Position numbers and translations under genes: made by a program | Shown: one piece after another, positions 6,001 to 14,618 of the stretch | How the letters are laid out: each line of letters opens with the position of its first letter | How positions within the stretch are numbered: position 1 is the first letter of the stretch | The notes under the pieces: generated by a model | The model's database searches: none | Seen by the model: the letters and a program-made list of their open reading frames with translations, nothing else | Told to the model about the DNA's origin: nothing | Origin: Ectocarpus siliculosus | Taxonomy: Eukaryota; Sar; Phaeophyceae; Ectocarpales; Ectocarpaceae | Assembly: GCA_000310025.1 (NCBI GenBank) | Contig: FN649727.1 | Coordinates: forward strand, 3,273,461 to 3,337,460 | Length of the DNA: 64,000 bases | Reading direction: 5' to 3'

Positions 6001-9000
6001 ACCTGCAACCAAAGAGAGTGTAGCACCATATAGGCCCTCTCTGTGTCGGCGATACTTTCAAGTCTCAAGGAATAAAGACAGAATACAATACTAGTGGATT
6101 CTTGAATACCTTACCACCGTACCACACACGCTACCTGCTGTTGTGGGATCCATGCGGGCGCACAACCTAATTCAGGCGGGACACGAAATAGCGTTGCTTT
6201 CACCTGTGACCACAGGTCCACGCACACCACCTCGTTGATGTCCAGCTCGTCAGATAGCGCCACGAGCTCCGACACGGCTTGCGGTGGAAGCTTCGTATCC
6301 ACAACGCCAGCAGCAAACCAAAGGGGGCACGATGACGACGACGCCACAAAACGAAACAACACATGTGCCGGAAGAGGGATGGGAAACGGTCCGAGAATAC
6401 TTTTCATCTCTATTCTTGTGAAACTAAAAGATTACGCGGGGATGCTTGTTCTTCGCGGTGCCAGAAAGAGCCCCAAGACCAACACGTGAACCAAGGAGCA
6501 AGACTGGGCGGGGAAACTAGGGATCTAATACAATACTCCATCTGCATTGAGCACACGGGACTACCGAATCACACCAACTAAACGCCTGCAGCCCACGATG
6601 TAACTCCTCTTGATGCCGTTGCCTACGCTACCACCAACACATCCCCAATCTCAGCACAACTAGTCTTGCACCTTCGCGCGGAAGCCCTTGACCACCACGC
6701 TTCCACTCTGCAGGGCCGCTCGGTCCTCTGGCGTCCTGGGGTGGCACCGGGACGGGTCCGGACAGATGAGGTCATCCCGACGGGCTTCTAGTCCCTCCGA
6801 GAGATCTCCGATCATCTCGTTGCCTTCTCTTGATCGGAGGAACTCTTGAAGCATTGCCTGATAAACATTGGTACGTACATACATAGTGCGGAACGTTTTA
6901 CAGCGGTAGACACATGCAGTGTTGTTGCGAAAAAGCAAAAAGGGGGGCGGGGAGGGTTTAGAAGACAGGAAGAGGCGGACGGTGAAGGGCTCGGGCAAAG
7001 TCCAAAGACCGAGACGAGGCTAATCTTTGAACATGTGTGTAGGGCGGTGCAGGCACAAGCATGTATTGGCTGCATGCGGTCGGAGTGTGCACAGCTTTTA
7101 CATTCGTACAAAAGAGGTGATCACCGATGGTGCAGTCCTCTTGCAAAGGTAAGGATGATATGCTGTAACGCGGCTTGCGGGAAAAGATCTGCCGCTAGAT
7201 GGTTGACAGCCTGGGGCACTTGTAGTGGGGCACTTGTAGATATCATTCAGACATGCAACATGTGTCTTTGTATATCTGAGAGTTTTGTAGAACATTGTCC
7301 TCTCTACATACAGCAGTAGATTCACAGACAAGGCCTCCTCAAAATGCTCGTCCTCTTGTGCCAGCACCCTGCCGTTGCAAGCACTGCCGTTGCAAGACGA
7401 TCTGGTATGCAGACACCCATGAGATGTACGACAGTACGAGTTCCAAGTACAGTGGGGGGCCCTCTATAGTGCCGGTACGTGCGCAGGGCGTTCACCGGCA
7501 CTATAGCGGGCACCGGCACAACTGGGAATAGTGCCTCAATAGTGCCAAACGGCACTATTCGGGTGATCGATATCCCTCAGTAGTGCCGGTCTGGCACTAC
7601 TGAGGCACTGCTGTTTGAGTTCATGGTGTATCGCTTACCATTTGCGAGGCCAACAGAGTAGCATGTGGATCGAGTGTGGTGAATATACTTTGTGGGCGGC
7701 AGGGGCAGCCTTTTCTGAGACAAATGTGGGTTCCACTCTGATAGCTGAGTTTGCCGCGAAACCATTCCCGCATGCACGCGCAGAATTCACCTTCGGAGCC
7801 AAACCCCGTGTACAGCTCCCGTCCGTGCAACTTAGTATACTTGAAAAAATATCACGTTCCTCGCTGCCTCCCTACGATGTTGCATGATGAGACACGCCAA
7901 CAAAACCAATAAACGCGCCAGCAACGAAGCGGACAAAAATAAAACAAAACAAAAAGAAAAAAACTGCGGTATAGCTGTCCCCCCCTCACTCATCAACAAA
8001 CTCTCTCATGTCTGTCTGGCGCACGCCCTTAGCGGCATGCGCCGCGATCATCGTGCCACCAAAGCTATTGTGCTAGCACCACCGCCCGAGTTGAAGCATC
8101 TACATAGCAACAGAACATGTTCAAACCTGACCTGGCGATGTCCTGGGGAGTGACGCTGCCCCATGCTTTCTGAAGAAGTTCAGCGGCGTCCCGTAGGTGA
8201 GGTTGGTGCCCCTGCGCCAGCCCCATCGTCCCGGCCTTCATCTTACTGGCTTTGGCCTGGGCGCGAAGGGTCTCAGCGACCAACATTGTGGATGCCTTCA
8301 CGTCGAGCAGCTCCTTCCTGTAGAGGACGTTCGTCTTCGCGATGATCCCCATGTCCATGGGCTGGTGCAGGCTGGTGCAGTTCGGAGGATAGAACTTGAT
8401 GGTAACTTGCCCACGATCATCAACGAGATCGCCGTGAGAGGAGCAGCCGTCCATCAGGAACAGCACCTTTTCGTGAGTGAAGCGCCGAATGAACGGGAGG
8501 AAGACTTCAAGCCACCACTTGAGGAACGTCGCGGAGTCAGACCACGCGTTGGCCTGCGAGAAGTGCTTCAGAGGTGGAGGCGCGTCCGTGAAGCAGCGAG
8601 GCACCTTCGACCTCCCGATGATGGCCATGTCCACCTTTGCAGTGCCGTCGGCGTTGCTGCACATGATGGCAGACATCCGATCCTTGAAGTACATGCTCTT
8701 GGAGCCCCGCGCCTTCTTGCGGTCCTCCGAGGAGGAAAGATACGTGCGCCTGGGCATAAGCTTCCACTGGATGCCTGTCTCGTCCACGTTGAAGATGAAC
8801 CTAGCTGGGTACTTCGCGCAAAGGCTCCTGACTTCCTCCATGCCCTTCTCGGTGGCCGCTGGGTCGACACTACCAGCCTCGCCATGAAGTCTCGCACTCA
8901 GCACCTTGTTGCGCTTCACGAAGTTCTTGGCCCACTTTTCACCGGCCTTGAAGTCCTCGACCCTCGCCCTCACTGCTGCAGAAGTAGCGGGCTCAGCGAG

Positions 9001-14618: not shown

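Follow-up and report, generated by a model that had tools for sequence, protein, structure and literature searches.

How did two copies of one DNA transposon come to lie joined and mutually inverted at a single locus of the Ectocarpus siliculosus genome? In the window analysed here (a 64-kb stretch of contig FN649727.1, to which all plain positions refer), 7450–14242 consists of two pogo-type copies of the same element, inverted with respect to each other around a 30-bp spacer. Copy A (left arm, 7450–10468, minus strand) has its R end outward at 7450 and stops at a TA (10467–10468), 31 bp short of its own L terminus. Copy B (right arm, 10469–14242, plus strand, 3774 bp) has its L end inward and its R end outward. 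The outer ends of the dimer are two intact R ends, each at a TA, read directly at 7448–7449 on the left and at 14243–14244 on the right, and the family's 31-bp L end (L31) does not occur after 14244. The first-pass annotation, made from the letters of the window, had described an inverted two-copy palindrome with both outer ends at TA and the other copy's terminus missing on the far side; all of this was recovered in the assembly, the inverted arms by self-comparison. A 100-N assembly gap (10355–10454), the sole gap within the window, lies just left of the palindrome centre, and the sequence of A is unread there.

The element has been active recently and belongs to a multicopy family. Searches of the genome (189 Mb, 492 contigs) with both ends found about 30 near-identical copies together with more distant relatives; these counts are lower bounds, with the best 40 candidates scored. 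We fetched 31 family loci, 28 of which have both ends in one piece; the complete-copy counts exclude L018, which is cut off by the end of its contig, and L035 and L036, two parts of one copy that a large insertion has separated. Full-length copies measure about 3.68 kb and internally deleted derivatives 1.8 to 2.65 kb. An identical 31-bp L end is present in 30/31 fetched loci, the remaining one (L036) being the L-less half of the split copy, and the L and R ends have about 26 bp in common. TA stands on both sides of 27/28 other complete copies, the exception being L019, where one of the two is CA. Among the shorter copies, seven of about 1.80 kb (L020, L022, L023, L026, L029, L031, L032) have one internal deletion in common and three of 2336 bp (L015, L017, L021) another, and we class both groups as amplified non-autonomous derivatives. 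In four further copies of about 2.26 kb (L025, L028, L038, L039), the sequence after base 169 resumes near base 1597. Locus L047 (C174:72000-77000) contains, at about 2300–2500, an array that repeats roughly every 60 bp and has a pogo-like inverted repeat in each tandem unit, resembling a satellite made of transposon ends.

Copy B retains two transposase reading frames. The N-terminal frame (10628–11185, plus strand) gives a match to a homeodomain-like HTH (HTH_23, 1e-4) and a weak one to CENP-B_N (0.13), both below curated cut-offs. The DDE frame (11780–12907, plus strand) matches DDE_1 (PF03184) over the cut-off, at E 1.3e-25, and HTH_Tnp_Tc5 below it (0.0093); it has no PDB match at E<=1. 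Its counterpart in A lies at 8065–9099 on the minus strand. Counted by eye on the translation of B, 31 residues separate the last two D residues of those that we take to be catalytic. The pogo superfamily is described as having a TA target, short terminal inverted repeats and a DD29-56D spacing (PMC7386202), a range that includes DD31D. The DDE_1 match, the TA, the short inverted repeats and DD31D together fit the pogo superfamily (IS630-Tc1-mariner), in agreement with the pogo-like identity first proposed for it.

Whether the arms stem from one copy can be judged from what they share and where they differ. A and B differ by 6 substitutions in 2903 alignable bases. In addition, A has a 720-bp internal deletion (deletion point at 8053–8054, minus strand; counterpart in B, 12919–13638) and, by alignment, a 2-bp AC insertion at approximately 9679–9680 (minus strand) that is seen in no other copy, while in B 93 bp of the DDE reading frame (31 codons) are tandemly duplicated (12582–12767, plus strand), which is not the case in A. 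The earlier statement that the arms differ at only a few bases is therefore accurate for substitutions but not for these length differences. Among the matches scored in the genome search, no other one spans A's deletion point, and fetched copies covering the duplication site of B align as two pieces around the duplication. Five of the 6 substitutions are derived in B and one in A; the arms have since diverged.

Against this divergence stand variants private to the two arms: A and B have in common 9 substitutions and 2 insertions (of 1 bp and 2 bp) that occur in 0/28 other copies in the alignment. Between 15 and 28 of these 28 copies have a letter at each of the nine substitution sites, and 16 cover the two insertions, one of which only extends a T run and is weak evidence. 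A and B group as a clade (support 0.997) in a tree that includes 10 further full-length copies, and are each other's nearest relatives. Since four other pairs of copies, at distant loci, are as close as A and B or closer (1 to 6 differences), closeness alone is insufficient to prove a single event. Taken with the physical join, the private variants make duplication of one copy the simplest reading, and A and B probably descend from one parent copy, although arm-to-arm gene conversion could also yield such variants.

The junction between the arms indicates how the duplication may have come about. Directly after the N gap, the right contig begins with 14 bases of the opposite arm, GGCAGTTGGCACTA (10455–10468, minus strand), which end at the internal TA and are followed by CAGTG. 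The exact first base of B thus abuts a TA located 31 bp inside A's L end, and this B-to-A junction sits within a single contig. By a rough estimate, the chance of such a match to the opposite arm, with its final TA directly before CAGTG, is about 1e-5. The spacer itself (10469–10498, plus strand) is B's L terminus. It had been called exactly the terminal 30 bp of one copy; its length and origin stand, but it is not exact, as it differs from the family's 31-bp L end by one inserted T and two missing bases. These are two indels in 30 bp, versus one 2-bp and two large indels elsewhere in the arms, and they could reflect either the processing of a central hairpin or low sequence quality where a contig ends. 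With perfect arms at this point, the gap would hide 14 bp.

The reading that we favour, and which we rate at about an even chance, is that a single parent gave rise to an inverted dimer by a one-ended attack of its L end, and that the dimer was then inserted as a unit. An L end cut by transposase would have been strand-transferred into an identical copy, at the TA that lies 31 bp in from its L end, either on the sister chromatid or on the attacker's own opposite strand, the latter giving a hairpin. Once unfolded or copied, such a hairpin would yield an arm, the 31-bp terminus and the second arm, with the R ends outside: a head-to-head dimer that has an R end on either side and no L end facing outward. 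Bracketed by intact R inverted repeats, the dimer could then have integrated whole at a TA, with no L remnant to its right. An attack of the L end on an internal TA is suggested by the TA|CAGTG junction, which combines the element's exact first base with the dinucleotide that flanks 27/28 copies, and one aberrant step would account for the parentage, the junction and the lost tail alike. There is some precedent: one study reports single-ended transposition of piggyBac, mentions it for Mos1 mariner and also reports autointegration of Sleeping Beauty (PMC3952818). Counting against it, the same source records no single-ended events for Sleeping Beauty, a Tc1/mariner element, in a similar assay (PMC3952818). 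Two further points weigh against this reading. First, a target 31 bp away in the attacking end's own duplex would require strand melting or a second copy. Second, the N gap covers the last stretch of A.

An aberrant product that moved as one unit was among the origins suggested by the first-pass annotation, and it is the best fit to the junction, the parentage and the missing tail. The movement itself we infer, because no donor scar, second dimer or empty site was found. Each flank has a single match in the genome (in a search that skips very common words), and so no empty site was seen. For a donor scar with a lone L31, a genome search allowing <=3 mismatches returned 58 matches and no scar, with 3 of the 28 inexact ones inspected. 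The 30 exact matches are all accounted for by the 30 fetched loci with an L end, leaving no stray exact L31; the three nearest-looking inexact matches (on C25 and C174) resemble the termini of different elements, with two lying in a tandem array, and were set aside. No second dimer occurs at the 31 family loci, mostly fetched with about 400 bp of flank. Among 46 loci (L009–L054) examined for inverted repeats >=100 bp, L044, L049 and L052 have one each, of 143 to 173 bp, and none is a dimer. Target-site base preferences, from 26 copies (without L012, L019 and the three incomplete loci), are too weak for an assessment of the outer junctions.

Other loci with the same 30-bp spacer junction, proposed at the outset as support for a mobile composite, did not turn up. 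The altered junction gave a single match in the genome with <=2 mismatches, at this locus, and the family L end preceded by GGCACTA gave 32 matches with <=3 mismatches, 0 of them exact. The best of these (1 mismatch) is the R end of L025, where the flank merely resembles the motif. Two others (L055 and L056) keep GGCACTA, with mismatches only in the following repeat; they are weak element-end matches with no inverted arms beyond 53 bp and were likewise rejected. At L055 (C13:2879000-2882500), a divergent element, GGCACTA stands immediately 5' of a divergent CAGTGGAGGGCCC end and the other side weakly matches an R end; this locus is perhaps a relic of two abutting element ends.

The right flank bears most directly on whether B simply inserted into A. 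B is followed directly by TA GCAACTACAG, which is host sequence and not A's terminus. Ordinary nested insertion would leave the outer copy's L terminus beyond B, and its absence there is at odds with such an event. We also considered the right flank as a decayed L31 and rejected this by eye; with arms that differ by just 0.2 percent, strong decay is unexpected. Nesting could still account for the locus if B had inserted at the TA near A's L end and A's 31-bp tail had then been precisely lost, the near identity of the arms being due to a recent sister copy or to conversion. B's L end does lie exactly at a TA within A, and the tail would have had a TA on either side, such that a 33-bp deletion leaves the observed sequence; the two TA dinucleotides could have served as the end points of such a deletion, or transposase could have cut a second time, at the L end of A. 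This scenario nevertheless requires an extra, precise deletion with a homology of just 2 bp, and a random nested copy would not be expected, without conversion, to be A's nearest relative and to share with it variants seen in 0/28 others. We consider it unlikely but not negligible.

The missing tail could also have been removed together with other DNA. Two inverted neighbours with facing L ends might have been fused when reversed-ends or one-ended transposition removed the intervening sequence, and L31 with it. In maize, termini of Ac/Ds that lie close together are documented to undergo alternative transposition (PMC3744419, PMC4270019), yet the scenario presupposes two near-identical copies already inverted and close to each other, and we regard it as improbable.

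The gap raises the separate question of whether the dimer is a product of the assembly, as the first-pass annotation had allowed. A single mis-assembled element is disfavoured because the same R end adjoins two different, unique flanks, and a simple assembly duplicate because the arms differ by 6 substitutions and three indels; the junction within one contig also speaks against a one-element artefact. What survives of the claim is a misjoin at the 100-N gap of two contigs with sister copies from different loci. The gap is only 14 bp from the spacer, the two spacer indels are of a kind that error-prone contig ends may have, and the host exons that would link both flanks are hypothetical (see below). 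However, the right contig alone contains the 14 inverted-arm bases and the TA|CAGTG join, and A and B are each other's closest relatives in the tree. Two other 100-N gaps occur among 54 fetched loci (L049 and L035), and that of L049 separates the arms, 97% identical, of an inverted repeat, whereas that of L035 does not; the L049 case suggests that real hairpins can break this assembly. In L049 (C2:1900500-1905500), the gap and the 150-bp arms around it are at 3783–4194, and a detected match to a pogo relative ends about 0.1 kb away. On balance, a two-locus misjoin keeps a minor share of our confidence, comparable to that of nesting followed by tail loss.

If the dimer is real, its surroundings may be those of a gene. 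A hypothetical exon of 19 codons with a GT donor is predicted at 14562–14618 (minus strand) and a second of 65 codons, with an AG acceptor in the same phase and a stop, at 6660–6857 (minus strand). The proposal that the dimer lies in a host-gene intron is plausible on this prediction but hypothetical: the two short exons flank it in phase, but for their 84-residue product Pfam gave nothing at E<=1 and the PDB a single match at chance level (E 0.88). Close to the right end of the dimer, 14308–14359 is a perfect 26-bp tandem repeat of two copies, and further right, at 17144–18387 (plus strand), are enoyl-CoA hydratase/isomerase-like exons (PF00378; a second match is below the cut-off).

A bolder interpretation, which we regard as a long shot, is that the dimer acts as a 'pogo killer': an autonomous copy folded by a hairpin-forming self-attack of its L end, carried by its R ends into the first intron of a host gene, silencing its family and still mobile. 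If so, minus-strand read-through would transcribe B in antisense and then A in sense, giving a hairpin RNA of about 2.9 kb that could feed an Argonaute pathway against some 30 sister copies, and the dimer itself would be mobile through its two R ends. The genome has Piwi-domain matches at one place and RNase III matches at two places; silencing by small RNAs is therefore possible, and the dimer may have a role in silencing. The six exon-sized Piwi-domain matches (C2:6872705-6877263) are probably one Argonaute gene. Silencing aside, the favoured dimer reading, if true, would make the locus a readable fossil of a one-ended self-attack in a Tc1/mariner-like transposon, one that would preserve the exact target TA, the parentage and the later decay of both arms. 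Inverted same-end dimers can start family-wide silencing, as Mu killer does, and the locus would be a place to study the origin of such structures outside maize.

Among the literature matches listed, no titles or abstract openings name an inverted pogo or mariner dimer, and no paper concerns pogo in brown algae; comparison is with other systems. In the alternative transposition of Ac/Ds (reversed-ends and sister-chromatid), transposase joins the ends of different copies, as it may have done here; doubleDs belongs to the same comparison. Ac and Ds are hAT elements with 8-bp target duplications, whereas the A/B dimer uses TA and has lost the reciprocal terminus. Foldback and Galileo elements resemble the locus in having large inverted repeats around a short middle. 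In Galileo, of the P superfamily, long and internally repetitive inverted repeats are described as a family trait (PMC3573991); here, in contrast, they occur at one aberrant locus and the other fetched family copies have short inverted repeats. Sleeping Beauty and piggyBac provide the parallel of a transposon end that attacks a target within transposon DNA, but plasmid assays were used there, and they gave deletion or inversion circles as well as single-ended products (PMC3952818), whereas the present case is an inverted dimer within an assembled chromosome. Among known structures, Mu killer (Muk) of maize, an inverted derivative of MuDR, comes closest. Muk is described as an inverted duplication of the transposase gene with two outer repeats from one element end, located beside a host gene; its centre could not be sequenced, and it silences its family, with short antisense transcripts favoured over a long hairpin as the silencing RNA (PMC3440606). 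The A/B dimer likewise has an inverted transposase duplication and two outer ends of the same type. The two differ in that Muk is a Mutator derivative built, as described, from partial copies, with the TIRA ends next to mudrA facing outward, while the dimer consists of nearly whole pogo copies whose outward ends are R, downstream of the transposase gene.
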